Shown: positions 6,104-64,000 of the stretch, one piece after another | Numbering within the stretch: the stretch's first letter is position 1 | Layout of the letters: every line of letters begins with the position of its first letter | Assembly (NCBI RefSeq): GCF_000003815.2 | Contig: NC_049980.1 | Location: 12,220,591-12,284,590 of the forward strand | Source: Branchiostoma floridae | Taxonomy: Eukaryota; Chordata; Leptocardii; Amphioxiformes; Branchiostomatidae | Direction of reading: 5' to 3' | DNA length: 64,000 nt | Notes under the pieces: generated by a model | Databases searched by the model: none | Told to the model about the DNA's origin: nothing | What the model saw: the letters and a program-made list of their open reading frames with translations, nothing else | Made by a program: the position numbers and the translations under genes

Positions 6104-8441
6104 GTTGACTATGAATAAACATCAACAATTGATCATTGGATCAAACCATAACCAGGCTTTAGAGTTACGACATCTAGAGTTAACAGCGTGAAAATAGTGG
6201 CCTTTCCGTAGGCGGCTGACTTGTGGTTTGACTCCAACAAGAGAAGTCGTTGAAGAAGCTGATGGAGACGATCGCGTGATCTGTAGTGGTTGGTCAATCG
6301 TCTATCTAAATGCACAATAGCGAAGTCCCCCCCATGGGATGGGAACAGCGACGCCTGGGCAGTTCTTATGGTCGTTGAAGACACATTCGGGGGGCATTTC
6401 AAATGGAAGTCTGCTACCTTTTTGTTATGATTGTGCTTCCTTTTGTTATGGAAGTTTGAACATACCCCGAATAGTTTTAATAGACGCGAGTACAAAACCA
6501 CATCTCTGAAAGTAAAGCTTGAGTAAAACGCAATCAATTGTAATCAATCTACTGAATCGAAAAATCGTAGGGCAATAACCACAATGAACAGGCTGATGAT
6601 TACTCGTCTTGTAAAATTGTTAGCCTACTTAGTTATTGATAAATGAATAAAACAGCCAAGATGCTAGTTTTGGCTGTGATGATAGGTGTATATTATATAA
6701 TGTTACAACATAATTATCTTTTTAAACACCAACGCACGCATATAAACGGACCATAAGATTAATGAAGAGATTTAACCGAAATGAAATTCATCACTGTCTT
6801 TGATGATATTTGTTATTATTTTTAAACAGTTTAGCAACTTAGCCGACGAGAAAATGAAATGTCATTGTAAATTTTTGCTTATTGTAGTTCAAAATTTACT
6901 TTAACATACGATTGCGAATTTGAAGTAGGTGTAATTGTTTTAACTATCGTGCCCGACCAAAGATAAAAAGAGGTTTAAATCTCAGAAAAAAGTGACGTCA
7001 ACATAGTGCCGTGCCAGCGACTGCGGTCGGTACATGTCTGCAATCCATTCTAGACAGTAAATTTCGTTTGTAAGAACGACCCAGTATTCTAAACGGTCCC
7101 TTAATTGAAATAGAATGCATGTTACTTTGAAGACGCGGCCTTGAAGTCAATATTGTAGAATGTTTTGCACGTTTCTTGGTTACCTCATAATTCCATTAAG
7201 ACTAAATATACGACCAAATGTCTCAGATGGCAGATTGAAAGCATAGGCCTCTCATCTTGAATTTATGTTTCTTTCTACCTCTACCATGTTATAGTTTACA
7301 GCTAGAGTGCAATGATAGAACATCTCAACCTTTTCCGAGTAGATCAGACGATAGATACATATTCTAATCAGATTAATCACGAAGTTTATTGACACAAGGG
7401 TGTCTACAAATACAAATACAAATACAAGTACAAAGATATCACAATGCCATACAAAATGCACCTGTCATTTGAATATCTCAGGTTTACAAACAGTTAGTTG
7501 CAACAGTAATATCGTAGGTGGTGATACGAACAGCTTTCACCAATCGACAACAACAACAACAACTACTACTAATACTACTGCTGGCCATCACTTCATAAAT
7601 ACAATAGTTTTATCTACACCCACCAAGGCGCAAGCATTGAGACAGTGAAACATCTAAAGTGGAAGCGTCATTACAATTAGATAACATCGGCTTATATTTG
7701 AAGCAACAGTACGTAGTTTCGTACGCGCGATTGGGAGGCAGTTGCCGTATGGTCTGCAGTTCAGGACGTCATCAACAGAGGTCTCCTTTGAGATGTGGGT
7801 TACAAAACTGTTGGTACTGACTTCTGTGATGACATGTTCTGATCCCAATGAATACGACAATAGCAGACACTAGTAATACGCGGCAACCATAACATTCACC
7901 CTCGGTACATTCCATGGAACTCTGTAAAATCTTGTGCAATTTGCCACAAGATTATCTACCAAAAGTCGCAAGGACTAAATTTGTCATTCTTCTGACATGG
8001 TTGTGTGAGATACCATCACTACTATGTTATTCATTGCCGCTACAACTGGCGGCTAGCGCAAGATTCTTTTATTCTTGGTCGGGCTGCCACTTTTTATGAC
8101 TGTCATTCAATCAAATGCATGTTGCAGCGCATCCAATCTATTTGGCTTCACCAGAAATTCAAGAAGACCCTGTTTTCACTGGGTTTGATTGTACTTTCAA
8201 ACAGTTAGGAATTGTTGTAATGTAGTCATCAAGAGTCACCATAATACAAACATACGAAAACCTTCACGTAAAAATTCCGTCTTAACATAAAAGTCCAGTT
8301 TAACTATGTTATACACACCAGCCGATTAGTTGATGGAAATTTCATGATGGTACCATTCCGGGATACATTTTGTGACGGGTCTAAACTCTGTTGATTCTTG
8401 GGTTTCGTAATTGTGTATGCTCATTTCGAAACGTTGTGATT
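6104..8441. other. intergenic region between the two K2P genes
   Basis: No supportable gene. It should contain the 5' UTR/promoter of K2P gene 1 (right of 6103) and the 3' UTR of K2P gene 2 (left of 8442). A minus-strand AATAAA at 7385-7390 is one possible poly(A) signal for gene 2. Simple repeats: an (AAATAC)-type run near 7409-7436 and (CAA)n/(ACT)n near 7546-7580. Confidence 0.5.
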
Positions 8442-11400
8442 TTAGATTAACCTGTCCAAGTCTTCCTGTTTTTTAGCGGTAGAATCTTGGGTTTCTGTTG
8501 CCTCAGCAGCTGCTGCCGTGTCGTCTTTTCCAGCGGGAGACTCCTTCTCTGAACCAGCTGTTTTCTCTTGGGATCCTGAAGTTTCGTCGACGTGCTCGAC
8601 CTTTGCTGGTTCCGCCTCTTGTGGTTTTGCCGCGTTTTCATTCGACTGAATTGCCGCTTCTGGTACCGCTGGAATCACTTCCGGTTCACCTGACGTCCCC
8701 TCCGGTACCTCTGGGGTCACTTCCTTTACTTCTGGCTTTCCTATCGGTACCTCAGGCTTCACCTTCGGTACCTCTGGCTTGCCCTTTGGTACCTCTGGCT
8801 TACCCTTTGGTACCTCTGGCTTCATATCCGGTACCTCCTGCTTCACCGGTTCCTTCGTTTCCAATTCCTTCACATCAGGAGAGGCTGTATCGTCAGAAGC
8901 CTGATTGGTCGAATCAGTCGGCTGGTCTTCTGGACTTTTCTTGGCAGTTTCTCCTTCTTCTTTAACGGGAATGTCCTCCATTTGTATCCCCTCTTGTGGA
9001 ATCTTTTGATCGTCTGTCGCCACTTCCTGGCTCTGAGCCGGTATTTCCGGTCCATTGGGTACGTCTAGTTCGGGTAGGTTCTCATGGCTTCCAGTTTTCT
9101 TGTAGCTCCCCTCAGTTCCAACGATGGCGTCTTCTTCGCTTGGTGTTGTCGCCTTCTTCTTCTTGTCATCCTTGCCCTTCTTCTTGTCATCCTTCCCAGT
9201 CTCCTTGCCATCCTTTATCTTCTCCTTCGAGCCCTCACCCTGCGCCATCTTCTTGATGCCCTTGACCGGCATGCTGGCAACATGAGCGACCTCTGACCCC
9301 ACCTTCCCGACTTTCCCAGCCAGATCCTTGGCCTCGTGCCCAAACTTCCCCGCGAAGTCCGTCACCTGTCGAAGATGTTGATTAGACCGCATCTCTTCCT
9401 CCAGCCTCTCTTTCAGCCCTCGCATGGCCTCAGCAATGAGATCAAAGACGGTGGCCAAAAAGCTCAGACCGACTACGATCCAGCACAGGCCCGCCCCCCT
9501 TGTGCCAAAAGGTCGTAGGGCCAGTGTTCCTTGACAGGGTTTTGCGCCACAAACATGTCCCCCAAACCGACGGTGCTGAGCGTGATGAAGACGTAATACA
9601 GAGCGTCCAGGTTGCTCCACTTCTCCCACGGTACATGGATGATGGTAGGCCGGGACAAAGCAGAACAGGCCCAGACCGAATATGATGATGAACAGCACCA
9701 TAAAGACCCGGATCAGATAGGGACGACGGATAACTCTTTTGACCTGAGATGAAAAAGAAACGTAAGGTAAATTCTGTGCTATGCATAAAGAGCTCAAGCT
9801 TAAATTTTCGAAACCTCCGCTGTGGCAGTTTTCTTGCATTTGACGCAAGCTCGGTTGCCCATTCATCTTCTAACAATTGTGTACATAAAATGATACTGTC
9901 CTTGGTGCTGAAACGTATGTTCGGTATTGCACTGGCTCTTTCTGCACTTCTTACTTGTAACGGGTTTCTGTTTTTGTGTCTATCTATCATAAGAAAAGGA
10001 ATACAACTGACCGATGATATAGTGGGTATAGGTGATGTGTGGCTGGGACAATACTTACCCTATTCTCCACCCATCTGTTGGCATTTCCCAGCTTCCCACC
10101 AATGCCAGCCAGCATGAATAGGGTAAGCGGAATGCTTACAAGGGCGTAGGCGATGCAGAACACCTAGAAGTACAAATCGCAGAAATTCAGTGGGTCTCCT
10201 GGGTTTGTATAGGACAAGTTTTTGACACATTTTCTAGTGTCTGATTTTTGTTGTTATTTTCTAACCCCATATTTTGATTCTAACATAGAAACATTTGTAC
10301 AAGAAAAGTTTTGTTGGAGGCATTCTTTGTGCGTTTTTTTTCGTCTTGCAATAATTACAAAAACCGCTAGGTGTTACCGTAACAGTGAGAGTTATAACTA
10401 GAGACACTGTTGTAGAATGACCTACCTTGCCGGCGTCTGTGAATGGATAGATGTGCCCATACCCTATGGTGGTGGCGATCGTACCGCAGAAGAAGAAGGA
10501 GTCGAAGAACCCGATCTTGTACGGCGTTCTTCTCGTGCCATTCTTGACATTCTCGGTGACGTTGACAAAATCTGAAAATTGTAAAATATTAAGGTTTTCA
10601 CAGGTAGGACGTAGGATCCAAAACTAAAATTCTAAAACTTATGATGCTGAAATTAAGGACCTTTGTTAGCTTCTCGGTGGTTGAGAGATGTACTTTTTCG
10701 TATGAAGAGAACAGATGATTCTTGGTTTTGGCTCAGATCAATATTCTAGCTCAGAAGCATATACGTTTATGTGTGTTGGGGGGGGGGGGGGCTGAAGAAT
10801 AAAGGACGTTAAGCATAGGAAAGTTTTTCCGGTTTTTAAAGCTGCCTACCCTAGCCTTTTTGTTTTGACTGATGGCAATTTTCTATCTGGCATCATAGTG
10901 ATTCAAAGCAGACTTCCTGTACTTCACACTCTGCTAACAGAATTTTAAGTGTTGATGTAAGAATTTGCAATTAACACTTGAGCTTGTGCAATGCACATCT
11001 AAGTGTATATAACGTTAATCATAATATAATGTTGAAATACAAGTGTCTAGATGAAAACGTTTCATATTATTAAATTATATTTCTTGGATCACTTCGGCCG
11101 AAATGTTTTAAAAAGTAGAGAAAAAACACATTCTCTACCTACCGACCCTAATTTTTTCAGCACTGTAACCAGAAACACAAGGTTAATGTTCCTAGGCCTT
11201 AGAGAGAGAAGCATACATATACAGGAGACACAGCTGCACATAACGTCAATGTGCAGGCAGTTGGTGTGTAATGGTCACACAAACAGACGATCGGGAAAGA
11301 GAAAATGATAATCATCTACTGATGATTTCACACCGGAGCATTGAATGAACGTTTAGATTTCCCCATTACGGTTTCGGTAACCTATATTCTATTCCCCGGC

Positions 11401-14400
11401 CCATCGTTTCAGCCGCTGTTATGGCTGAACATTTCAGTAGCATTTATGACCCAAAACGCTCGCCTGTGATCACGGTGCTTCAGGGTAATACTTGCGTCAT
11501 TCGGCTATGAGTCACTTTGAGATAAGGATATTAACTGGGAGAATCGATGGCAAACTAAGATGTTTTTCAGTGCTATATCAACGTAAAAGTGCCGTTTTAT
11601 CATTTGTAAAATTACCTGTCCATGATATTGCAAGCATAACACGGGGTATAATGACAGAGAGATAAGGTAATGGATACCAATAATTGCTTCGTGTGCAGCA
11701 ATGCTAAAATGCCTAACAGCGTGGAAAGTTAACCCACACGTAGTCTACCATAATAGCAGTGGATGAAACTTTTCGCTGGTCCTTGATGACACTAGCACTC
11801 AGCAAAACCATTTCCGAAGGTTTCAAGGAGCTCTGTGTTTAGTTTGATATAGTAGCAGGTGCTGTGTCTTGTTCATTCATTATCCTACGAAAAGACACGT
11901 TATTTGATACCTCGATATAGTGCCTGATTTCGAGACTATAGACACTGACACACGACAGCGCTGTAGACTGAGCTGATAAAACACGGCATGCTGCAGCTTG
12001 TGTGGATTCCGAGGCTATAACCCGATTCACGCTCTGTGGCACGGCAGCCTTCACCCTATTCTGTTCCCGAGTCTATGACCCAAACTACTGTGGAACGACA
12101 ACCTTCACCCTATGCTGTTGCCGAGACTATGACCATGACCGGAGCCATTGTGGCACGACATCCTTCACCCTATGCTGTTGCCAAGGCTATGGTCCGAGCC
12201 ACAGCTATGCCATGACAGCCTTCACCCTGTGCTGTTCCCGAGACTAGTCATACCTGACGCCCAAACGTCAGCGCGCTCCGTTGTTGATGGATGGGAAGTA
12301 ATTTCGGCCTGCTTAGGTTACAGAGCCTCGTCCATCACCATGACAACCCACACGACCCTATCACAGCAGGAGATAGATGGACGTTTCAGGACGACATACC
12401 TTCACGCATTGCGATCGATTTTTGAGCAAGTTTCACCTTTTGTTGACTAGATTAACCAATCAGCATCCCGGTATGAGGTGGGAGAAGCAAAGACGAAGCA
12501 TGGCATAAATAGATGTATATACTAGAAACATAACAGGTCCAAGAGACAAGTTTCTTTTTCGGAGACAAAAAAGGTAATGAACAGGGACTATACTTCATTT
12601 GCTGGAAACAAATGTGTGATGTAAATTGCATGACGACGTATTTATTTGATTAAAGATCACGATTACTATTGCTACATCATGCGCTTTAATTTCTTCCCAT
12701 TGAAGAACGTACAAGTGTCATGGAACCCGTTATAAAAAAACTGGTATAGGGCATTTGTAATCTATATGAAAGCACAACTGTGTCCAAAAACACAATTGCC
12801 GATTTTTGACGGCAAAAATTCTCTGATATTATCACCCGCAAATCTCCGGTGAGTTAGGATGAATGAGTTGTTTTGGCGCACTATAACACCATTTGTGTAG
12901 TACTTTCCGAGAAAGCACTCGCCTTTCTTGAGTCGCGTGTTTGGACATCCAATCTGGTGAGATTGGTTTCGATCGGTGATCCAATGTAAGCATCTTAGCT
13001 CCAAGAAAAGTCGACTGGGCTTTTAGTCTTATTAGTATACTTCAGAATTTACCTAACAGGTCTGTCAGTGGGCAACGATATTTAGTAAAGTGCTACTCTT
13101 AACGTATTGCTTGACAAATAAGAGATGGGATCTTCGTACCAAAGAGAACCATTGCTGATCGCTGTTATGGATTTTTATTTCAACTGTGAATCTTCTTAAC
13201 AAAAAGACACTCAACTTGTATTGCTCATATCCGTAATGGTTTGGATATTTCTTGTATGCGCGTACTAAACCAGGCTGTACTAAACTGCTATAAGCATCTA
13301 GGTACAATTTACTGTGGACAAACTGTGTATATGGAGCAAGCAGTTTTGGTCTAAATGTACTTAATTAACAACACCAAAGAAGGAAGGCGGAGTGCACATA
13401 GAAAAACTATCACGATGAAAGAAGTTGGAGAGATGTGACCATTTTAGATTCAGACACCATTACTAGGATCGCTATAAATATTCAAGGGACCCTGTCCTCG
13501 TCGTAAATTTGGCTGATGTATTGGTCCTTGATCGGCAATCTTAATGTGGTTTAGTCTGCAAGAACTAGAGGGTCTATTTAGCCACAATTGCAATATGGTC
13601 CACAAAATAGTACATACATGTATGTGTACACTCGGAGGTATTTTCTGTTTGTGGTGTTCTATTCACATCATCGGATTGTTATCTTAAATATGACTATTAT
13701 AGTTACAAGCTTAACGCACATTCCAGAGCTATCAGTCAAGATTATGGCATATCAGTCAGCTGTTTAAAGACATTATCGACGACCAACATTTAACGATCAC
13801 AGCAGTACACGTAGAGTTTAGTGGGATACGATTTTAATCCGAGGTAATCCATAACATCGCTTGTGACGTCTTGCTTTGGGAGTTTTGGTAACTTTTTGAT
13901 TCTCCCTAAACTATGGTATTGATTCTTGAAATAGACATTTTACCCTGAAAGATTCATTTCGGAGAAAAGGAAAAAAGTCACGATTTTTTTTAACGTGGAA
14001 CGGTACGAGGGGCGTGCAATAAGTAATGGTCCTGACCCACTTTCAGTTGTCTGATCTAAATGAAATTTTGTCTGTGTAATAATTCATATCTCTATGGGTT
14101 ATGTTGCAAAAGACAGCTCTGAACTAATTGTGGTTTCTGATTTACTGGTGTTTGAACTTAGTCAGGTGCGAAATGGACCAGGTGTGAAATGGAACCAGTT
14201 GAGTGTCGCGCAGTGATCCGGTTTTTGTATTTGAAAGGACGCACACCAAAGAAGACTTTTGATGAAATAAATGAAACTTATGGTGATGATGCCCCATCAT
14301 ATGACCTTGTAAAACGCTGGCATCCTGAATTCAACGTGGCTGGGAGTCTGTGGAAACAGCTCCCAGACCTGGTCGTCCCTCTTGTGCCATTGATGAGGCA

Positions 14401-17400
14401 TCAGTTGGAGGACCAACCTGGGGTGTCCTACAAAACCGGTGTCCAGAGCTGCATCAAACGATGGGAGAAATGCATAACTCTGGGTGATTCCTATGAAGAG
14501 AAAGACTAATAACTGTGCCAAGTTTCATTAATCTCCTGCTATGGGAAATGGGTCAGGACCATTACTAATTGCACGCCCCTCGTATGGTGTATGTTTGCGT
14601 TCGCCATTGCAAATTTCTGTATTTTTGTTTTAAACCAGAAATATACACATTACAATTTGGCCTGAAATGGTAAAAATTCTATAAAGTTGACTCCTGGCAG
14701 AATTTTGAGATGTCTCCTTATCTGTACTCGTTTAGAATACATTCTAGAACTAACTACACGTGTGCGAAATTTGGCATTTTTAGACATATTTGCACAATTT
14801 TTCAGATGCATGCATGTCTGTGGACTAGAATTAAATTGTTAACTTAAGTAGCTATACTGTAATACCTATAACAGCTTCACGACCGTGGCCTTTATGTAAC
14901 CTATGCCGTGGGCCAACAGATCTTTCTTCCACGTTTAGAAATTTAATCTCGACGCCATAAAAATTTTACGACACGTCTCTCTGTAGGGCAATTATGGGGT
15001 AGCTTTAATAAGACTGGATGGACAACATGGCATGCGGAGGCCTTGTTAAATGGAAGCCGTGTAATTTAAGCTCGTGCTCGGGACATCCTCTAGGGACAGG
15101 TGTTCAATCATGCTGAGACACCAGGTACGCGTGTAGGTCAAACAAAACATTTCTCATTTCTACCTGGGCTTGAAGCGGGAAACAGTTTGCCATTTGTGAC
15201 AAGATCATACGACTTACGGATAAGCTGTTATTTCTATCTTTACCTGAGTTCTGTTTTGGTTGTCCAAATGACCATCAAACATTTATTACCCTTGCCAAGA
15301 AGGTTAGGCTTTTGTAATTGGTTAGTTGGATGTTGTTTTGGACAGTTTAATATGGGAATCTGTGGATGGATCTTTATGATAGTTGGAATGAGGGTAGGTA
15401 TGGTCAAAACAAGTGATTGTAAACCACCTGGTAGCTCTATGTGGTACTGCAGCAGAACTTCCTGCTTTAATATCTCGTGTTCTGGATATGCTATGGTCAT
15501 AATCGTGTAACGGTAGATACCTCTTGGTCTCGTAAGGAGTAGTATAGGCTTGAGCCCCCTTGCAGCTTTTATTTTGAACTGTCGATGAGACCTTGCTTTC
15601 TTCTGCAGACGTTCCTTTCGACAGTGTTTCTACTACATGTAGTAGGGAAACTCAGAAGTGAGGCACGTGCCTCTCAATGGAAACACCGGTCAGGCGCTGT
15701 GTGAAATATTGTATGGGACGGGTTTATATTGGCGATAATGGCACCAGTATTACTCCACTTTGTCACGATATCACAGTAACAATTTCAGCCTTTAATGGCC
15801 AGTAATGTGCGGCTGTGCTATCAAAATGTTTCTTTCGGGAGCCCAGAATGACAGGATTTCCGGTCATCTAAGGCTTGGCTCTGGCCAGGATTTAGAGATT
15901 AGAGTGCTGACCATACATAGTCACGGGTAGGAAAGGCTTCATAATGCAATACATGACATAATCTCTTATCACAGGGGAATTCTCTAAGGATTATGAAAAC
16001 CTACGTAGTTGGCACACACACACCACAGTTATGCGTGGTAAAGATCGTAAGGATTAGGGGCTCCATGTTCCACCACATTCCGAATGTTAGTGCCTGTACA
16101 ATGTACATGTATTTGATTGAGTCAGTAACACACTCCTTCTACTGGAGGCCGCAACCGATAATCGACCTTTTTCTTTTTTTCTATTTGTCAGATGACTCAA
16201 AGAATTTCGAAGACAAAGAACGGGTTTCTTTAAGTTTTTTTGTGTTCTGTCATTTTTTTTAAATCATATCTTACATTGTGCAGGATATTCTGATTATAAA
16301 ACCAATGGTTGCAAATCAAATATTTGTCACTCAAATGTCGCACAGGGATTGTCTCTTTGAACGTACATTGAATCGAGTTGTTTGCGGTAACAATTTGGAA
16401 TATTTAGGTGTATATGGCATCGATTTTCAATGCTGCATATACTCACGAGTATTGTTCGTGCATTGAAATGTTGCTGTCGTACTAGCATCTGATTTGAATT
16501 CGTTATTCATTTGTAGGCATACGACGTGAAAGGAGTAAGTAGGCACCATGTATTCCTTGTCACGGTATTGCATATATCTTATTTTGCATTTGCGACCTTT
16601 GCTTAACAGTTAGCGGCCGTATATGCATTCAAGTCTATGCACGGATTATTACTTCCATAAAAAAACGAAGATTTTGCTTTCGTCCTGTTTGCTAATTGAA
16701 TATTGTAGAGTAACAGGATGTGAAGCTCGAGATTGGCAGGATGGGAAGGTTGGCTTGGCCCGGGTCCAAATTTGGTCTCGCGGGCAGGAAAATTCATAGC
16801 CATTTCATGGAGGTGTGAGGTGTTTGTTGTTCTGTCAGCAGCTTATGATCATGATGAGCTGCTTACCAGCACTACAAAGGGGTACAATCTTCTTTGCAGG
16901 TCAGGTCAACGCTTTAAAAGTCCATCTATTTATAGATAGAGATGTTACTATTGGATATTTCAGACGGAACATTTGATTTCATATTCTTAGCAGAAAAAGG
17001 CGGGGAAATTGCGGCCCGTAGACAGCCAAAGTTCCTTGGCTCCTCTAATTTCTCTTGCTGATGAAACGGTTTCGTGTCAAAGGGCAGGGACGCAATCACC
17101 CGGCTTTAATTCCTCAAGCCGACTTTCTACAAGTTCGATTCCGCTAGACAAGAATACGCTTCTGTCGACGTGATTTTGGACTATTCCGGCCATTTTATCA
17201 CTTACCGAAGGTCAATTACAGCTATTGCGGGCGCGCCAAAGAGATAACAAAATCTTCCATTTTGTTTAGGCTGACCCGAATGGCTAAAAGGTCACGGTGC
17301 CGAGGACAGGTACAAAGGCTCGATGATTAGATTTGGAATGAGATATGGTGAGCAGAGGGCTGAGGAGACCTCCATGGAGGCATTATTTGATAACGGCAGT

Positions 17401-20400: not shown

Positions 20401-23400
20401 TATTGTTTTACGTGTTGAGATAATGATTATCGTCAGACTGATCATAACAATCGGTATAATCTGCATTTAGAATCGCTGGCTACTTTTGACAGAGGCATTC
20501 AGATTGTCAGCGCCCTAGCGTTTGATTGACATCTGTGTGGCACAATCTTTGTCAGATCCACGCCAGCCGGGACGCTTTAAGTCTGTTTGAATAGGGAGTT
20601 ACAGATACGTGAAGCGATGGCGACTATGTTAGGCCATCTCTGTTGGCTTAAGACGGCCCATGGCCTGGAATAAAGTAGTATTCTATACATCGATCGTAAC
20701 TTTTGATTGCTCGGTCGCACTACGATGAAACTTCACACAGTTTTAGTACTACTTTAAACACATTGAATACTTGTGATTTTTTTTGTACATGCCGGATTTT
20801 GGGTTAGAAATAAACATTTTGGTTAAAAAAAATGTTGTTTATTTCATGAGTCTAGTCCCAGCTGGAAACAAGACTTTAAATTATGATATTCCAAAGGATG
20901 AAAGCCAACCTTAAACTTATCATTTTTATCCGCGGCTATTTTGTTTTAAATTAGGATTATATTGTTTTTTGGGGCCGAAAACATCAGAAACGACCATTTT
21001 TTTCAATTTTTCGTTAAAAATGCACCATAGTCAAAAATATAAAATGATTAAACAAAATAGCCGCGGACAATTTTGATAAGAAAGGGATAATAGGTAAATC
21101 TTGAGTACAAAAAAGATCAGTACTCTTATTTTGAGCTGGGACTTAAGCCGTAAATGTCATAACTTGACCGCACAGACACCGACCAAGGATAAAGGGTCCT
21201 TACGGTGCCTGTTTACGTTGAAAAGTCGCAAATAACTACAGGTTCGAACGCGCGTTCGGTTCGAATTACGTAATGGAACATCATAGAACACGCGTTCGAA
21301 TTCGGCTGGACAAGGGAACACGCGCCCGAACTCGGACACAAATCGAGCGTAGCTCAACAGAGATGTAGCGCAGTATACTTGGGTGGCGTATGATGGCGAC
21401 AACAGGTCAAAGATGGGAGACAAACTGGGCTCGGAGTTTGCTCTTCACAATTTGACTTCATATTTGATGCTTTACCATATCAAATTAGCTTCAGGATTTT
21501 GTATAAGGACAGGAGTATGATATCTCACAATAAAAACCTCTAATCTCTAACCTGAACACCGGATACCTTTTACCGTTTTCTAAGAAAGACCCAGGGATCC
21601 TACCGAAATTCTACCGAACTAGAGTATGCTTTGATGCGTACATATCAGACGTTGCCATATGTTAGCACAGAATAATGTAGAAATCGCCTTGGAACAAGAA
21701 ATCACTGGAAAATATTTATTTTCTATTTCAATATTGACATTAAAATAATTTTTGATGAGTTAACCCCAAACTCATCAAATCATATTTTATCCATTTCGGT
21801 AGATTTCACCCTTAGTCATGTGTATTCTGGTATATTCTGATGAATGTTAATAGTCAGACCACATGAAACGGATTTCGTTTACATTTCAAAGTGATGGCCT
21901 TATACACAGTAGTCGTCTTATTACCCACGTTTATTACAGGCAGGCAGGACATCATAGAAAGGTGTAGATAGAGTTTAAGCTCATTTTCCACTAGAACTGA
22001 TTTGAAGGTCTAGGTTATGGTATGCAATCTCTTTACATTACTGTTGAGAGGATATGAAGATCACCTGACTAACCTTTAAAATAGGAGAGCCTCGAAGAAA
22101 TGATAGCGTTGGTTCAGGTCCGCCTCATGTTTATAGCCAATAGTACCATTACCTTACACGCGTATATACTCTGTGCATGTCAGAGAAAATCATGCATCGG
22201 GGGAAAACTGGAGCAGAAAATAGTGCAAACACATTTGACAGTTCTTGAGTATTCCGTGTTTTGTATAACAAATAGAAGATCACAATGTCCTTGTAAGCGC
22301 CACGAGCAATTGTCAGTCTAATACATCACGCCAGTACACCTGCCACAATTGTTCACATATGTGGGTCATTAGTCAATGACTTGTGACATGGAGTATCCAT
22401 CCTGACAACGTGAATAGAAGCACGGGTCGAATCTACAGTGCTTTAAAGAAAGCCTAGGTTGTGAGAAAGGTGTGAAAGGTGTGAAAAATGGACTATTAAA
22501 ACGCTGTCATTCTAAATATGAGGAATGGGTGCACCCAGGAGGTGTAATAAACTGTGCTATGATCCACTTTGATTATCCTCAAGAGGTTGGAAAGTATGGA
22601 ATAAGATTTTTCTCGACATCCAATAATACTTGACCTTCTAGGGAACGAACAATCTGACATTCAGTGGAAATTACTACTCTACGCAGAAAGACGCATAAAA
22701 TATACGAATGGGCATGATAGGTCAAGGTTGTGGATTTATCGTTCGTTACATTAAGATGTGAAGTGAAGAAGTGTAGAAAACAAAATGCGTTCCAAGGTAC
22801 ATAAATGTTGAGGTTGAAGGAGGGAGAAGCATGGCGACAACAAACTACTACTAGTTATACTGTGCGTGCGGTTACATAATTTACGGTTACGTTGCAAAAA
22901 TACAAGCTTAATTGTATTTTTTAGTATGGCATAAAGAATGCATGTACGTGAAATAAAATGGCATTTGTGACTGACGAATTTGTGTTTTTCTGAATGAACA
23001 TCTTGTCTTTGAGCTTTTGTATTGTTTATAAACAAGTAGCAAATATTTTGATAGGAAGTTGATCATCTATTTACGGAAACACAAATACAACATTGCATAC
23101 GTCAGTGGCAGGTAGAATTTTGCCAGATTTTTAAGCAAATGTACAGGAATAGAATCGCCGTGCGAGGTAGTGAAGTGCTAACATCCAGTAAGGTGCCAAG
23201 ATATTGGACATATATATGAAGTCCTGGAATCTGTATATCGCGTATGGCTGGACATATTGAATTTCGACCGGAGGAGTGGGTGGGCGTTTTGCCACGATTA
23301 GTCTAGAAAATTCGGAAACATTTAATCAGAACGCTTGGCTCGGGTCAACAGCAATTCTGCACGCCTACCTTGATTAATTGATGCGCTCCGCACCTGCTGC

Positions 23401-23627
23401 ACCGCATCGATGAGCTCGAAGAGTTCCTCCGAGGTGACGCAGAGGTTCTTCCGGGAGACGAAGTCCTCCACCACCGCCAGCTCGTCCCCCTCAGGTCGGG
23501 GAGTAGTAGTTTCGGGCGCGGGAACACCAGGGTGGTAGGTCTCCTCCAAATATTTGAAGACCACGGCGCCGATTAGCAGGGCGGCTACGAATGTGATGAA
23601 GAGCGCCAGCAGCCGGTACCACTTCAT
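8442..23627 (-). CDS. KCNK: two-pore-domain potassium channel, gene 2, long repetitive C-tail
   Basis: Second K2P leak K+ channel. Coding exons: 23369-23627, 10426-10571, 10059-10163 and 8442-9743 (phases 1, 0, 0), about 603 residues, twice a typical K2P because of the tail. M1 about 6-28 (MKWYRL start, as in gene 1); one cap cysteine (NLCVT); NVT and NGT glycan sites; pore 1 TTIGYGHIYP (120-129) with the TASK-type sensor His; M2 in exon 3; M3 at the start of exon 4; pore 2 STVGLGDMF; M4 (WIVVGLSFLA). Pore 2 lies in a different frame from M3 and M4: an apparent extra base at about 9644-9645 and a missing base in the C6 run at 9494-9499 compensate. The tail is Lys/Glu-rich with KDDKKK runs and tandem KPEVPKG-like units. 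The exon 1 join rests on matching phase and on no other M1 exon lying between; the first intron is 12.8 kb. Sequencing error is the simplest reading of the indels; a broken allele is possible. Confidence 0.87.
8690..8862 (-). repeat. in-frame Pro-Glu-Val-Pro repeat in the K2P gene 2 tail
   Basis: About seven units of roughly 21-24 bases encode variants of KPEVPKG (KPEVPKG, KPEVPKV, KPEVPIG, TPEVPEG). Each carries the conserved string ggtacct on the plus strand. The units are in the cytoplasmic C-terminal tail after M4 and should be extended and disordered. Nucleotide similarity among units points to recent local expansion. Confidence 0.85.
12008..12247. repeat. minisatellite, four to five units of 54-60 bp
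   Basis: Units start at about 12010, 12068, 12122, 12182 and 12239 with the core cgag(a/t)ctatgacc and end with ccttcaccctatgctgtt. Three of four spacings are multiples of 3, so the plus strand stays open and would read FTLCCCRDYD-like units, but there is no ATG at its head and no splice context. I treat it as a non-coding tandem repeat. Confidence 0.75.
14006..14582 (+). mobile_element. internally deleted Tc1/mariner element (mariner branch)
   Basis: 577 bp element flanked by TA at 14004-14005 and 14583-14584. Terminal inverted repeats of about 33 bp begin cgaggggcgtgcaat and end with its complement, differing at few positions. Inside, a plus-strand frame from 14189 encodes the mariner transposase N-terminal helix-turn-helix (FLYLKGRTPKKTFDEI, then SYDLVKRWHPEF), then soon the C-terminal end of such transposases (RWEKCITLGDSYEEKD). 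The catalytic DDD core between them is absent, so it is non-autonomous, mobile only if a relative supplies transposase. The near-intact ends suggest it is fairly young. Confidence 0.92.
15288..15602 (+). repeat. interspersed repeat family R1, partial copy
   Basis: Matches two other places in the window (59590-60310 plus; 45440-46350 minus). Shared landmarks in order: ccttgccaagaaggtta; ctgtggatgga with atgat; tactgcagcagaactt; tctggatatgctatggtc; ccccttgcagctttt. The overlapping frames at 15100-15510 (plus) and 15240-15500 (minus) fall in this repeat and are not genes. No coding domain or terminal repeats were recognised. Confidence 0.75.
17820..18096 (+). mobile_element. tRNA-derived SINE copy
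   Basis: The head resembles a tRNA gene: an A-box-like tagtgttacggcagg and, about 35 bases on, a B-box-like agtttcaagtccc. The body carries cctaggtaaaggcactat and tttcctgacatcacac, then accaccacacctatcgaaag, a module order shared with the copy at 25370-25548. Degenerate; no clear target duplication. Confidence 0.65.
20855..21142. mobile_element. foldback/MITE-like element
   Basis: About 288 bp with imperfect terminal inverted repeats: gtcccagct at the left end and agctgggac at the right, and inner arms ccgcggctattttgttt / aaacaaaatagccgcgg. The whole could fold on itself. It is AT-rich and has no coding capacity. Flanks are ta on the left and ttaa on the right, so the target duplication is uncertain. 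Confidence 0.6.
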
Positions 23628-25369
23628 GCTTCGGACTCAGTGTCGGGGGCCAGAATTGACCGATGCAATAGAGAGATCCCCACGGTTGGAAGTCCGGATG
23701 GTAATATCACCTCGCCCCCGTACGAAGAAAAGTTGGTCCAACACAGATTATGTCTTTTAAGCGGATATATGGCCAGACACAGCTTTCGCATTTAAGCCGG
23801 CTTTACAGCAGCACAGCAGGTTTGATGTGGCTTTGCTACAGACTCGTGCACGCTCACAGAAATACCAGGCGCATATATATGCATCGGGGAGAGCCGCCCT
23901 TCGCTGGCATGGACCCAGATGATTAGACTGCAATGAAGCGCTACAATTATGCAATAAATTAAGCCACAAATATTCTAACCAAGGCGTAGCGAATTCAAAG
24001 TGCTCCGTCTGCAGCGGGAGCCGAATTAAACTGCGTGAAGGTGACAGCACTGTTAGGGAGGGTACAGGACCGGTCCACTCGTGATGGGATAATCATGGGT
24101 AGAAGAGACGCATCTCTCACTAGGGACGGGTTGATTTGATATCGCAGCGAGGGGCAGTTCGTTATTTTCCATATCACCGGTGTGGAATAAATCAGTGTGG
24201 CTGCTGGAGGATTTGTTTTGCACGGGGAATCTGAATTGGATTACTATACGGTAGTTTTTCTGCACAAAAACATTCTGGCATATATCCGAATACAAAATGA
24301 AACCCTGACTGTATCATGTTGTAGATGATAAGCTAATGCGTTAGCCTGCAGTGCAGTTATATTGGTAAAACAGTACAGACATAGAATAAAATGATTTTAT
24401 AACATGTTATTATGACATGTTTTCAAGCGGTCGATGGCAAAACATAAGCGAAGATAATAAAAATTTACAAGAAATTTAGAAAACAAGAGAAACATAAAAA
24501 CAAAAAAGAGTTTACACCAATATCTCTAAATTATGTAATTGGTGTCCGGTTATAACCCCCTCTTTCAGAAACTGGTCCCAGCATATAATCTTTCTGATCG
24601 GTCCCAAGCGATCGTGTATTTGATTTATGTCACAAAAGCACAATTTACCATGTCACATCTGCCTATTATGTGTTGAACAATTGTTGTACTGTCAAATATT
24701 TGTGACCGCAGAGGCACCTTAGAGAATTTTATTATTTTTTTCTTTGGGTGATTTTTTCGGGGAACAGCTTGTCGTTGAAGTAGTATATCAGTATTGTGAA
24801 AATAAAGCGGGGAGGGGAGTATGATTTAAGTCATCCAAGTGTACTAATTGTTTCTTTTGCATACCCAGCAAACGTCATCATGGAGCAACACAACAGGTTT
24901 GTACTGAAGAACACAAGCCGCACATCCGGACGGATTTACTAGTATGTTACACACTCACACCGGGATGTCCGCCTCCTCTTTTCGATAAGTGTCGTGTACC
25001 CTAAGCAATATTAGCCCGAGTAAGGATTGTAGTACTTCACTTATCAAATTATTTTCTGCGTAAAAATCAACTCTATTCCATTCCATACCAACGATCAACA
25101 TTCGATACCGCAGTGGCGCGAGGACGCTGTGAAGTCTAACTTATATTTGTGCGTTACAACATTTAGAGAATCCTATCGCGGCTTGTTCGCGCGCTATTTT
25201 TATTCAACCAATCAAAGTATGAATTAATGATGTAAATGTGGGAATATAGTGCAGTAGATATCAACTTCACACAGTTTGCCTCATTAAGAATATTTCCTCT
25301 TTTAACGCTCTAATATTGCTTAGGTTGCCATTAACATACTCGAGGTATGGTTCTCAAATTTCCATTTAT

Positions 25370-27752: not shown

Positions 27753-28394
27753 TCATTCCTTCCTTTCTTGATACTGGATTTGTGTTTCTGTTGTAGAGTA
27801 AACCGGAGATGGCATCCCGATTTGGACACCAGCCTCCTCGTTCACAACTAACATCTCGTTATCCACGAGACTTTGCGTGGTTTCCCGGTTAGTCCGGGAC
27901 ATTTCGAACCGCTGCACGCTCCCATAATCCCTGGACGTCCCCGAACCGTTTGCTCCTGTTGTCGCGTTGTACAACTGGTTCAGTTCTCCCATGCAGATTG
28001 CATAGAGGAGCACCAGTGACAGTGAAATTCCTCCCATCGTCAAGAAAATAATCCCGGCCATGACACAGTTGTCAAGATGCTGACGTAAGATGACGTATTC
28101 TGTCTCGATTTTTTCAATTTCCCTGGCCGGCTGGGTGTCAGGGTCGACCGTCGGCTCCCGCGGGATTGTCCAGGCAACAGCCACCAGAACGATCCCCAGA
28201 ATGAGAAAGCAGAGGGAGAGGATAAACCCGGAATCCACTGGGTCCCGTTTGGCGCCTGTTCTTCCCAAGCATGTCCTCTCCCCCAGCATCTGGCGCTGCA
28301 CTAGCGTATTGTCACCGTCAGAGGGCGCTCCACAATGCGATGTTCTACGCGAGTCGCCATCATCGTTATTGACGGTGACGTCAACGGGTGCCAT
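27753..28394 (-). CDS. TMEM74: TMEM74/TMEM74B-like two-pass membrane protein
   Basis: Uninterrupted 213-residue reading frame. A polar N-terminus leads to two hydrophobic segments at about 56-78 (GFILSLCFLILGIVLVAVAW) and 111-134 (VMAGIIFLTMGGISLSLVLL), separated by an acidic loop of about 30 residues with the IPRE-VDPDT-ARE-E pattern, then CMGEL and a polar tail. That arrangement and those short motifs match the TMEM74 family as I know it. Human TMEM74 is a lysosome/autophagosome protein that promotes autophagy; the same role here is inference. The coding region lies in one exon. A plausible acceptor on the minus strand (CCCTTTCAG, ending at about 28473) suggests a spliced 5' UTR. NAT and NGS in the tail are possible glycan sites only if lumenal. 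Confidence 0.82.
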   Translation of the reverse strand: MAPVDVTVNNDDGDSRRTSHCGAPSDGDNTLVQRQMLGERTCLGRTGAKRDPVDSGFILSLCFLILGIVLVAVAWTIPREPTVDPDTQPAREIEKIETEYVILRQHLDNCVMAGIIFLTMGGISLSLVLLYAICMGELNQLYNATTGANGSGTSRDYGSVQRFEMSRTNRETTQSLVDNEMLVVNEEAGVQIGMPSPVYSTTETQIQYQERKE

Positions 28395-31300
28395 TTCTGT
28401 TTTGTTTTCAGATGTCTTCCCCCTGTCTGTGAACTGATAGTATCTATTTTGTTGATTCTCCTCACGTGCTCACTGAAAGGGCAAATAAGATGTCTCTGTC
28501 AATATACAACACAGATTAAAACCACGACCATTTGCAGGGGTAAAATAGCAGTCTTCTTTTTAGATCTTTTTACACACTACTCAAACAACATCCATACTGT
28601 ATAAAAATCTATCTTCGTCTCGAAAATCACAAAAACATACAATTTCTGCATAGTCAGTGAATAGCTTGCAACACGTGTTCACCAACATATGCATGGCATG
28701 TTGCCACATGCTACCATCCTTTGCTGAAATTCAATAATTTTGACACGGTTTATAATTTGTAAATAATTTTGAGGTAAGAGTGCCCTATTTTTGACTAGCA
28801 ATATTTCACATCAAAAGAATAGATCATGTATTTTGAAGCAGTTTGCGAACAGAATACTCACGACATGGGTGAAATATCTAATCTTTAAAGAAGACATATG
28901 TCCATGCCAGCATGCTCTGCTCTAAGTCCAACTCATAACAACTATGTGCTATCGAAGTGGGGAGTCACCTGCGAGAAAGGTGGAACTATACTACGGTAGA
29001 ATATCCAGACGGAGATGCATGAATAACTCTAAAACAGTGAGCCACCGAGTCAAGCAGCGATCAATACCATGTAAAAACACACAAACCTGTCTCATCAATA
29101 AACAATTGGTACTGACCTTACAATAGGACGCGTCCGGTCCTGATACTTCACAGTAAGGAGTGGTGAGAGTTTTAACAGGAGTAGAACATGGTACCATGCA
29201 ATCTATAACGTATTAACCGATGCACATTAGGGGTCAGTTACGTAAAGCCAGAAACTTTGAAAGATTTCAATTACAATGGGTAGTCCCACTTAAAACGACT
29301 TGAGCAACTAGCTACTTCTGTATGTAAATGATATACGTACTGCTACACAAGTGTTAGGCCCCTTTGTAACATACTATCACCATTATCTATCTGGAAACAG
29401 ATGCAGATGAACAGATATTGATAGTATTGTACCTACACTTCACATGGTCATTATGCACGTCATGTCTTGTAGTGGCGTGTGGCGGGGCTGTGTTTTTGAA
29501 TAGAATTCTAGTGCAAAAAAATCTATAAAAGGGCCAGAGTGATTTGATTTATGGGTTTACTATTACAGGCTTAGAGTTTTATAGTTATAGACGCTGAGTT
29601 TTATAGTTTTTTCTATGTGAAAGAAAATGTATTCCCATTATACACTAATGACTTGACTTAACTGCAATACCTCCATACAAGCATACGCACACCTTCAAAT
29701 ATGATACAACCTTAATTAGACTGAAATTGATACAGATACAAATTCTTAATTATATAACCTACATTTTTTCTTCAAGTCCGAATTACTCACTCGCCATTAC
29801 CATACGAAACAGATAAATTTTACGATACATATACATATACATATACATGTACATACAATGTAGCGGGCCGCAATTTGTAAAACACGGACACCTTACTGCT
29901 AGAATTGCCTTTACTACACATGACTGTACCCCACAGTTTTCATATCTGGAATGACGTGAAACAATGACCTGGCCTCAGGCGGCTTGATCCGTGAGTGAGC
30001 AGGCTGAAACGGCAGCTGGCACAGAAAAATCGATATCAACGCGGATGTGTCAGTCACGTGACTCACATTACACACGCGATGGTCCGTTAAAACTGGACGA
30101 TGGCTCGTTATGACTGGTGTTAGAAACGGGGATGTATTTGACTGATGAAAACCGTCACATATTTGTGAAGTACAAGGATGAAACATGTCTGACTAGTAGA
30201 ACTTCCAGCTATTTTTCAAGTAGATACGTATTTGTTTGACACACTATTAGCATAATATTTATCTACCAGTATTCTTCTAATCCTCAGTTTAATACAAGGA
30301 ACGGTTTCCGTTTGCATAAGGTTTCCGTTTGCATATTCAATATTTATTCATGTGGCATCACTATCTACAAACCAAAAACCATGACGATCCGTCGACCCTT
30401 TCAAAGTCTGACACTAACCCGACTCCTGCAGTTCCAAAACAAGCCGATGTGTCAAGTGCTGTCCAGCACAGTGGAAACATTATCGTTATAGGCCGCACCA
30501 TGGCTCATCCGATTCCTTAGCATTCTTGGCGAAGGCAAAAAGGGTTGATTAAAAGCGACGTTTATTAATTTTCGCGTGAACTGCAGCATATCTGTATCGC
30601 AAACCATTTTGCAGAATATTTCCAATTTGGTGCATTTGTTTCAACGCTCCGATTTTTCATATTCTCCTGTAGTCCAATTTTATCATTAAACTAGGCTAAA
30701 AATATTCAACGCACATTTACAAACTGCTTTAATAGCCGATATTTTTTAACTATATGGTCCAGACCGCACTTGTTGAATTGTTCTAGAAAATATTTGCTCA
30801 AGAGGTCACTGAGTGATCGGGTCACATGATACTGATTCAGTGGACTTACGACCTGTGGCGTCATTGCCACAGTACGTCAGTTCACGGCAGTCGAGACACC
30901 GAAAACCAACTTCACATTCTGCTGGCCTTCAACGGGTGACAGGTATTTTCTATGTGAGAAAGAGCGAATGAATGTTCCACACATGTAGATTTTAACGCTG
31001 TTATGATGTGGATAAATTGGTGCCCCCCCCCCCATTGTGTGACCATTGAATGACACATAGTTTTATATTTTGCTAACAACATAACACTGCTGCACATACA
31101 TAATAGAACTTTCTAATGTCCGAACAAGCGTTGGACTTTGTTAACTCAACCGTTTTTGATTGAGAAAAGACATAGATATTTCTGTTCAATAATTTGTGTG
31201 ATTCTTTTGATTTGTCGTTGTTTTGGTAGACAAACGTACGATAGGAATTCTTAACAATCAGTCATTTTGTGTAGAATATTTTTCAATGTTTTTAAAAAGC

Positions 31301-59589: not shown

Positions 59590-60310
59590 CCACCATGAAA
59601 ACTAAAGGTATAGTTTTTGGTGTGCCTATATGTGTGTGTGTCTGTCTGTGTTTCCGGATATTTGTGGTCAGCATAATTTTGGAACCTCTGGATGGATTGT
59701 AATGATATTTGATACATGTATATGGGTAGGTGTTGGAAAGACGAAGGTCAAGGTCGATTTTGGCCCCCCTGGTGTGTGACCTTTGTACTGCAGCAGAACT
59801 TAGATTTTTTGTATCTTTCTATCTGGACATGCTATGGTCTTGGGTGGCAGATAGCTTGTGTTGTAAGGAAAAAGTGATGTATGTTTGGACCCCCTAGCAG
59901 CTTGCTCTGAAACTGAAGAGGCTTTTTGTCAAAATCTTCCAAGGAGTGTAATGGAACATAGGAACAATGGATTTCCATATTCAGCATGCAGGTACCTTTG
60001 GCAGAGATGTTCATAATGAATTGCAAATGTGGACTTTATTTGCATACTTGATGAGGAAAATCTATACTTAGTGTTTTCTATTATAGGGCTCAAATACATG
60101 TAACAAGTAGTTTGTGGCAGGTAGAAGACTAGCAGATGCCAATTATGCAAATAAGTGCCCAATTTACATTAGTAATGTCAAAGTGTCCTAATTCATCTAA
60201 GTACATGTAGTAAATGATTGGATTGTCAACACTGTGACCTGTGTAATATACCAAGCATAAATTAAGCAGATGTTATTTGCATAATCAGAATATTTCATGG
60301 AGGTATGAGG
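59590..60310 (+). repeat. interspersed repeat family R1, long copy
   Basis: Head gtttccggatatttgtggtcagcat; then ctctggatggattgtaatgat, caaggtcgattttggcccccct, tactgcagcagaactt, atctggacatgctatggtct, ggcagatagcttgtg and accccctagcagcttgc, followed by a tail with several TTTGCAT/ATGCAAAT motifs. Matches 15288-15602 (plus) and 45440-46350 (minus). No open frame spans it. Confidence 0.75.
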
Positions 60311-60994: not shown

Positions 60995-61030
60995 CAAGGA
61001 GCTTTTATATTCTGATATAAAAGCTCCTTG
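60995..61030. repeat. perfect 16-bp hairpin
   Basis: caaggagcttttatat at 60995-61010 pairs perfectly with 61015-61030 around the loop tctg. The sequence ctgatac occurs on both flanks (60989-60994 region and 61031-61037), consistent with a short insertion or duplication. Confidence 0.8.
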
Positions 61031-62102
61031 CTGATACATGCCTTGAACATTTTGCGCACATCTCTCAGTTTAAGCTGAGAACAAGTTTATGGATCAAAAC
61101 TAAGGGGAACAAAGCTTCTAATAAGGCATTACGATGTACACATACCCTGTACAACCACAAGCAGATCATTGTACGTGTGCACAGACTAAAACTCACTCAC
61201 TATGTCAAGAAATCAAACTGTTTCTTTCAACAGAAAAATGTAAGGCAAGTATTACTGAACCTATAGCCTCTTCTATGTGTAACATCATCAGAAATGTCAG
61301 AGATTACAAGATTTTGTTCACAAATGCTAGGTACTAGTACATTGCTGCAAGTACCTAGTCAGTATTTCTCAAGCTCAAGACCTAGGAGCTCTGGACAGTA
61401 TGTGCAAAATGGTAGCTGCTTTTGTTCCCGTTAGGATAGAACCTATGGTTGCACAATCCCCAGTCATTGAAAGCAGATCAGGTAGAAGATAAGTAGATGC
61501 ATGATTACATGAAGCAATAACAAATTCTAAAACTCTACTTTTATCTCATTGACAATACCCAAATCCCCAGTCCTACCGGTATCCTTGATTACATATGTAT
61601 CATATGTACTTATTTCTACTGCGTTGCCACAAGTGCTACAATATGGTTGCACTATGTAGAGAGCACTATACTGAATTGCTACCGATAATTTTGTTGAGGT
61701 ACATTAGAGCTCCTTACACAACAGTCTTTGCTTACATTTTACCTACCCACAAACTATTGAAACATCAACTGATGAAGGTGTTGAGCTAAGACAAAATGGT
61801 TATCTATAGAAACATCTATAAGAAAAGGCACAAAGTCTTATTCTAATATGCTACACATACTTTTTCAGTCATTTTTGCAGAGTTGAACATCTTTCAAATG
61901 ATCTAAAACAGGCCACAATTCCATGGTCGTTAGACTAAAATGTGAATATAATCTGTGGCAGTGAGCTAGTATGTAATGTAGAAAAAAAATACAGAAATCT
62001 CTACACAAAGATACATCAAACAAAGTCCTGTACTTCACTCACAGCTGTATTTTGAAGGATGCTTAAAATAAACGGAATCAAAAAGGAGACTTTTTGTATA
62101 TG

Positions 62103-62148
62103 TGGGCTCATCTTCTTTGATTCTGTGGGCTCATCTTCTTTGATTCTC
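62103..62148. repeat. tandem direct duplication, 23 bp unit
   Basis: gtgggctcatcttctttgat followed by tct occurs twice back to back with no visible difference, indicating a recent duplication. Confidence 0.85.
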
Positions 62149-62849: not shown

Positions 62850-63211
62850 TCATAGAATCTTGAGAAGCTCCACATCGAAGATCAGGGTTGCGTTGGGTGG
62901 AATAGTGAGACAGGTCAAGGTCAAATTGCAATAAAACATCAGGCTTAAAAAGGTACAGATTCAATACATAGAAAGTCTGTTAAGGAATTAAACTATGCAT
63001 GCATACTGAGATGTATCGTGGTTAATATATCACAAAGTTAAAGGCCCAGAGAGAAACAAAACACACTAAGTCTCCCACCACCCCGTCAAGAGACCGGTAA
63101 GCGGTAAGATAAGGTAAGTCATTGTGAGAAAGGATATACGCCAGGGTATCCCTTTGGGCCATATGCGTAGTCAGATGTGCAGGTCAGCTTGGCTCTCTGT
63201 CCCACGCTCAT
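62850..63211 (-). CDS. FKBP1A: FKBP12 peptidyl-prolyl isomerase, last two coding exons (partial)
   Basis: C-terminal part of the 12-kDa FK506-binding protein, a cytosolic prolyl cis-trans isomerase that in other animals binds ryanodine receptors and type I TGF-beta receptors. Exon 63138-63211 begins after TTTCAG and encodes [18 protein letters not shown] then PKGYPG; exon 62850-62904 encodes [17 protein letters not shown] and the stop. Alignment with human FKBP12 is straightforward: Tyr82, Ile91 and Phe99 of the ligand pocket are kept, while His87 and Ile90 are Tyr and Val. The 233-base intron between them (62905-63137) starts ATATCCTTT and ends CAC, so it looks like a minor-class AT-AC intron, and only that splice gives the expected GVIPP. 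About 60% of the protein (N-terminal exons) is upstream of the right window edge, assuming the usual 108 residues. Confidence 0.95.
62905..63137 (-). other. U12-type AT-AC intron in FKBP12
   Basis: The minus-strand 5' site is ATATCCTTT, a full match to the U12 AT-AC donor consensus. The 3' end is TCTCAC with no usable AG nearby. A branch-site-like CCTTGAC (consensus TTCCTTRAC) lies so that its A is 10 bases before the end of the intron, within the usual short spacing. Phase 2. The flanking exons join as Gly-Val-Ile-Pro-Pro, as expected for FKBP12. Confidence 0.9.
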
Positions 63212-64000
63212 CTGAAACAGAAGTCCATTAGGTTACATGGAACACTAAGGTGCAGACAAGAACAATATAACTACAACTGATTTCAATGTATCGACTATAC
63301 ATACTGTGTGGCAGTGCTGATAGCAAACAGGCTCCGAAATGAGATAACTGTAACAGATGACTTGCAGTACCATTTCAAAACTAAACTTCAGCATTCTAAC
63401 TAAATAAAAACATCGAATGAAGTCTCCTCTCATGGTTGTTGATTCCACAACCTTGGATCTACATTAATGGGAGAACCCTCTTCCTGTGCTGCTTTGAATC
63501 TGTTGACTCAGACTTGGGACTACATTCTTGTCTTTGCAGCATATGTTGGCACAATACACTCTGGCATGTGTTTTGTAAGTTGTGAAGGACTTGGAAGTGA
63601 CGGTGTACCTTTTGGCTACTTTTAACCCTGTCAATGTTTTGCACACATATGTACATTGTATACTTATGTAAGAAAGGTTACATCATAATTCATTTGGACT
63701 GAGCTAAAATTAATGGTGTTTCACACAGCATAAGACAAAGCCAAGCATTTGCATGTACATTATGTAGTATATGTTTGTGGTTAAAGTTAAACCACTACCA
63801 GTTTGGAGGGCTAACATACCAAGGCTGTCTATGAGGTTAACAATTTGTAAAATGCCTTTCTTTCAGGCACGGGTACCAAACAAACAGTTTTAGCAACCAA
63901 ACTGTCTGGTATAATGGTTAATCCAAAATCATTTCCAATTAATATGAAATTTATATGAATGTTTCACCTCCACATATTAGGGGTGCAAGTGTTTCAAGTA
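63212..64000 (-). other. FKBP12 intron, upstream part
   Basis: Upstream of the exon at 63138-63211 on the minus strand I find no sequence matching the earlier FKBP12 exons, so the intron continues past the window edge. Content is AT-rich and otherwise plain. Confidence 0.6.

Follow-up and report, generated by a model that had tools for sequence, protein, structure and literature searches.

A probable U12-type AT-AC intron in the FKBP12 gene of Branchiostoma floridae

The 3′ end of an FKBP12-type gene

The window, a stretch of 64,000 nt analysed over its whole length, includes on its minus strand part of an FKBP12-type gene. The features of the gene are itemized in Table 1. Moving down in coordinates, and so in the direction of transcription, the strand passes from the end of an intron into the penultimate coding exon, then through a second intron with AT and AC termini, and finally into the last coding exon. 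The join to the penultimate exon is preceded by ACTTCTGTTTCAG, which has the appearance of an ordinary major-class 3′ splice site, so that this upstream intron of the FKBP12 gene ends in CAG. It is located just before the sequence MSVGQ, which we take to be the same position as in vertebrate FKBP1A and FKBP1B. The gene is seen in part, with its last 42 codons within the window and its first part beyond it; inspection by eye of the 789 bases from 63212 to 64000, translated in three frames, revealed no earlier FKBP12 exon.

Table 1. Coordinates of the coding exons, the intron and its candidate splicing signals (all positions are those of the window)
Feature	Position	Strand	Details
FKBP12-type gene, penultimate coding exon	63138..63211	-	74 nt, ends GGCGT (24 codons + GT)
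FKBP12-type gene, last coding exon	62850..62904	-	55 nt including TGA; starts TATTCC and completes Val
AT-AC intron, phase 2, probable U12 type	62905..63137	-	233 nt; GGCGT / ATATCCTTTC ... TTTGACCTTGACCTGTCTCAC / TATTCC
Putative U12-type 5′ splice site ATATCCTTT	63129..63137	-	9/9 to consensus; C at +5
AC 3′ splice site	62905..62906	-	intron ends CTCAC; protein join
Proximal branch-site candidate GACCTTGAC	62914..62922	-	7/9 to TTCCTTRAC, core CCTTGAC exact (62920-62914)
Distal perfect branch consensus TTCCTTAAC	62979..62987	-	9/9; A at 62980, 75 nt before intron end

When joined, the two exons encode an FKBP12-type C-terminus that is intact and finishes with a normal stop codon. The identification as FKBP12 is based upon the match to the Pfam family FKBP_C and the PDB matches of these 42 codons, from a full protein of ~108 residues. 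The spliced product aligns with positions 55-94 of the 94 of the FKBP_C profile (E = 1.2e-12), and thus extends up to its final position. Its best matches in the PDB are FKBP-type isomerases, including FKBP12.6 and FKBP12 (60 listed of 73 distinct sequences, with E up to 1e-8), and the gene belongs to the same protein family as FKBP1A and FKBP1B (FKBP12/12.6). Two aligned PDB FKBP stretches, each 78% identical to the spliced product, contain PGVIPPN unbroken.

A similar protein is encoded by a bacterium. A scan of prokaryote genome contigs returned eight loci, all of them in bacterial records, and the detail given here comes from one alone (L001:2776-3129, in a Polyangia bacterium MAG). This is an intronless FKBP with 85% identity over the stretch that matches residues 1-41 of the amphioxus product, and it reads through the conserved 18-residue stretch without a break. 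The likeness possibly goes back to an ancient transfer of the gene between bacteria and eukaryotes. A scan of viral contigs gave 3 matching stretches, none of which was confirmed.

The protein join and the splice signals

The intron interrupts an FKBP12 loop at the point where Gly is followed by Val-Ile-Pro-Pro. Enumeration of joins with donors from 63145 to 63122 and acceptors from 62964 to 62891 gave 502 pairs that preserve the reading frame. Among these the conserved protein is restored by AT-AC 63137/62905 alone, if we include with it the TA-CT pair 63136/62904 that is shifted by one base; these two joins are the only ones of the 502 that yield GYPGVIPPN. AT-AC ends occur in eight of the pairs, and the seven other than 63137/62905 all insert residues. 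With the same AT donor, the other in-frame AC acceptors are at 62914, 62920 and 62953, leading to 3, 5 or 16 extra residues respectively.

Conventional boundaries fare poorly. From 148 GT-AG and GC-AG pairs that were tried (donors 63211-62964), a single one is in frame. This is GC-AG 63188/62944, which exchanges the conserved 18-residue stretch for 14 unrelated residues. GT-AG splicing fails because this sole in-frame pair drops the loop, and because the intron has its final AG 39 nt short of its end and none at the join; both GT-AG and GC-AG joins were rejected. The sequence-only reading of this DNA had stated that a GT-AG model does not work for want of an AG in the right place, and this is borne out. 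Its coordinates, its AT-AC ends, the CCTTGAC motif and the restored protein join were likewise all reproduced by the join enumeration and by reading the sequence.

The consensus for a U12 5′ splice site is (A/G)TATCCTTT. The intron starts with ATATCCTTT, and its first nine bases agree with that consensus at every position, precisely where the protein requires the intron to begin. Such 9/9 matches are found at 2 of 127,982 positions in the window on both strands, the FKBP12 donor included. The shorter sequence ATATCCTT is unremarkable, with 5 found in the 64 kb against 2.70 expected. The donor has its weight because of its exact placement at the exon end that the conserved protein dictates; the short motif itself is not rare. 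In dinucleotide shuffles of the intron, which preserve its first and last base, a donor of at least 8/9 arose in 31 of 20,000, and such a donor together with a proximal branch site of at least 7/9 arose in 4. The window contains seven RTATCCTT sites, of which the FKBP12 donor alone has within 4 kb a branch-like motif followed at 8-20 nt by AC or AG. There are 13 such donor and branch pairs within 4 kb of the FKBP12 donor, and GYPGVIPPN is obtained solely from that ending at 62905.

The U12 branch-site consensus is TTCCTTRAC. Near the 3′ end of the intron there is a branch-like element, the 7/9 sequence GACCTTGAC. Its candidate branch A is 62915, located 10 nt before the last base of the intron; the published optimum for the distance from the branch A to the 3′ splice site is given as 11-13 nt (PMC3584512). 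The main weight of the U12 case is carried by the donor. The branch site alone is weak evidence, because 1,672 of 20,000 intron shuffles (8%) contained a proximal match as good (≥7/9). In the 64 kb the motif CCTTRAC-N6-16-AC is unremarkable by itself, with 13 occurrences compared with 8.57 expected. Its position at a boundary determined by the protein is less ordinary, as 15 of 7,926 AC dinucleotides are preceded by a CCTTRAC whose A is 8-20 nt away. Elsewhere on the minus strand, at 59730-59755, a second GACCTTGACC is followed by AC ends (GACCTTGACCTTCGTCTTTCCAACAC), and the region resembles the branch region of the intron.

A better match to the branch consensus lies further from the 3′ end. 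The element TTCCTTAAC is perfect, and is one of two 9/9 branch sites in the window on both strands; any 9/9 branch site was present in 202 of 20,000 intron shuffles (about 1%). AG follows TTCCTTAAC directly, generating TTCCTTAACAG, and there is no AC or AG 8-20 nt past its A. Base 62953, with which an in-frame AC ends, comes 27 nt after that A, and a join there would add the 16 residues mentioned above. The distal element is too far from the intron end for normal branch use. Chance, at about 1%, is one explanation for it; it may also be an alternative site, or an older branch site that has been displaced. The assignment to the AT-AC U12 class made by the sequence-only reading is supported, and this better-matching, badly placed branch sequence is what it overlooked.

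Intron class and proposed splicing

U12-type introns have either AT-AC or GT-AG ends, and lack a clear polypyrimidine tract next to the 3′ splice site. The AT-AC termini are thus permitted for this class, and the 3′ end, TTTGACCTTGACCTGTCTCAC, is of mixed appearance as regards a polypyrimidine tract (judged by look). U12-type introns are described as biased away from phase 0 (PMC7367187), and the phase 2 position of this intron fits. With known U12-type AT-AC introns it shares the ATATCCTTT donor, the AC end, a CCTTRAC-type branch sequence near the 3′ end and phase 2; it differs in that the proximal branch sequence is 7/9 rather than perfect, and in having the second, perfect consensus 75 nt from the end. 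From its sequence the feature is very probably a U12-type (minor-spliceosome) AT-AC intron of phase 2 in an animal FKBP12 gene, to which we assign a probability of about 0.93. Of the readings tested, it alone leaves the conserved protein undamaged while accounting for the 9/9 donor, the AC end and a branch-like sequence 10 nt upstream, and for this reason it is supported.

That AT-AC ends by themselves leave the class of an intron undecided is stated in two published accounts (PMC3584512, PMC2831892), which would allow removal of the intron by the major (U2) spliceosome, as for some sodium-channel genes. The two kinds of intron share their AT-AC ends. The U2-type introns of the sodium-channel genes are reported to have G at +5 (PMC2831892), whereas position +5 of the FKBP12 donor is C rather than G, and lies inside a 9/9 U12 donor. 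U2-type AT-AC splicing was rejected on this base, and we consider it very unlikely. Another explanation is that the true join lies elsewhere, either at GC-AG 63188/62944 or from the AT donor to the AC at 62914, 62920 or 62953, with the 62905 join an artefact of forcing the protein. All of these pairs are in frame, and 62953 has the perfect branch consensus upstream. However, the GC-AG pair replaces the conserved 18-residue stretch, the alternative AC acceptors insert residues in a loop which the aligned PDB relatives have without interruption, and a spacing of 27 nt is far past the 11-13 nt optimum (PMC3584512). Misplacement of the join is more improbable still than U2-type splicing. The same low probability attaches to a pseudogene or an error of assembly, in which the intron is unspliced or its ends have been misread. 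The gene is seen in a single assembly, with its first exons beyond the window, and this leaves some room for such an origin; against it, the exons show no damage, they are conserved and the reading frame closes with a normal stop, and a 9/9 U12 donor would have to have arisen from a misread by chance.

Assuming that the intron is of the U12 type, a course for its removal may be proposed. The donor of such introns is recognised by U11 together with U11-48K, and the branch site by U12 (PMC3584512). By analogy, the U11/U12 di-snRNP would recognise ATATCCTTT, through U11 pairing and U11-48K, and also the branch site GACCTTGAC. The U4atac/U6atac.U5 tri-snRNP would join next, after which A62915 would attack the 5′ splice site and the exons would be joined following the AC. 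The action of the minor spliceosome, the A used as the branch point and the expression of the gene are all predictions. If the intron were kept, translation would meet an in-frame TGA inside it, giving FKBP12 without its last strand. Rfam gave no hits at gathering scores in the 64-kb window, and no U11, U12, U4atac or U6atac gene was seen there.

The competing branch sequences, with splicing that might be slow or variable, raise the idea that the intron acts as a regulated gate on FKBP12; alternatively it could be a recent lineage-specific gain of a minor-class intron. We regard either as unlikely, if less so than the explanations dismissed above. Were regulation to occur, retention of the intron or use of the AC at 62953 would produce FKBP12 with a broken or a lengthened C-terminus.

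Two other proposals for the nature of the intron were rejected. Folding of the intron RNA is not above that of shuffled sequences (z = 0.37, with 129 of 200 shuffles folding at least as well), and it is therefore not considered to be structured. A repeat or mobile element was rejected on the result of blastn, which found no second copy in the window.

Evolutionary setting and the rest of the window

Vertebrate FKBP1B, which has the whole stretch within a single exon, is not known to carry an intron at this codon. If it indeed lacks one, then either an old intron has been lost there, or a rare gain has occurred in amphioxus. Should vertebrate FKBP12 genes lack the intron, the site would offer a simple test between an old intron and a rare gain.

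Minor introns are stated to comprise <0.5% of the introns in any given genome (PMC3584512), with recent exceptions to this low share (PMC10639083). In one survey that tabulates 17 animals with U12-type introns, the AT-AC share of these introns is 47% in Drosophila and lies at 8-26% in the other 16 (PMC7367187). A preference of minor introns for ancient genes has been reported (PMC10639083). Gains are described as rare (PMC2831892), and significant gain as extremely rare (PMC10639083). The sequence-only reading had considered an AT-AC intron in this gene worth noting for its rarity; minor introns are indeed uncommon, but AT-AC is a regular U12 subtype and old genes are favoured. A minor AT-AC intron in a conserved gene is not a common find, yet it is what this class of intron would lead one to expect. 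AT-AC minor introns are already a known class, of which the FKBP12 intron is a further member of modest interest.

Among the papers listed by literature searches on U12-type or AT-AC introns of FKBP genes and on FKBP1A/FKBP1B gene structure, none has a title that deals with minor introns of this family. The word FKBP is absent from the main texts of five papers on minor introns. The intron may already be present in U12DB, MIDB, IAOD or the database of PMC10639083. It is a well-signalled intron, probably of the minor class, in a gene that is small, deeply conserved and of relevance to drugs, and provides a clear case where gene finding limited to GT-AG would lose the end of the FKBP12 protein.

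The GC content of the window is about 41%. On the minus strand ion-channel exons extend over 3324-10623, with Ion_trans_2 matches at 3324-4067 and 10264-10623; by eye these resemble two-pore potassium channels. Two further frames, 8445-9869 and 23325-23636, have a similar look by eye but no Pfam match. A further open frame on the minus strand (27756-28469) has a Neurensin/TMEM74 match that is barely past the cut-off, at 28.4 compared with 27.7 bits. The frame 14162-14506, on the plus strand, matches the Mos1-transposase HTH family HTH_48 (E = 1.4e-9) and is likely to be a mariner-type remnant. Such neighbours, together with the GC content, suggest an animal genome, probably that of an invertebrate. 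Inspection by eye also revealed two short repeated sequences in the window. Bases 60996-61029 form a 14-base inverted repeat without mismatches around a loop of 6 bases (AAGGAGCTTTTATA TTCTGA TATAAAAGCTCCTT), and GTGGGCTCATCTTCTTTGATTCT is present as two adjacent copies at 62102-62147.
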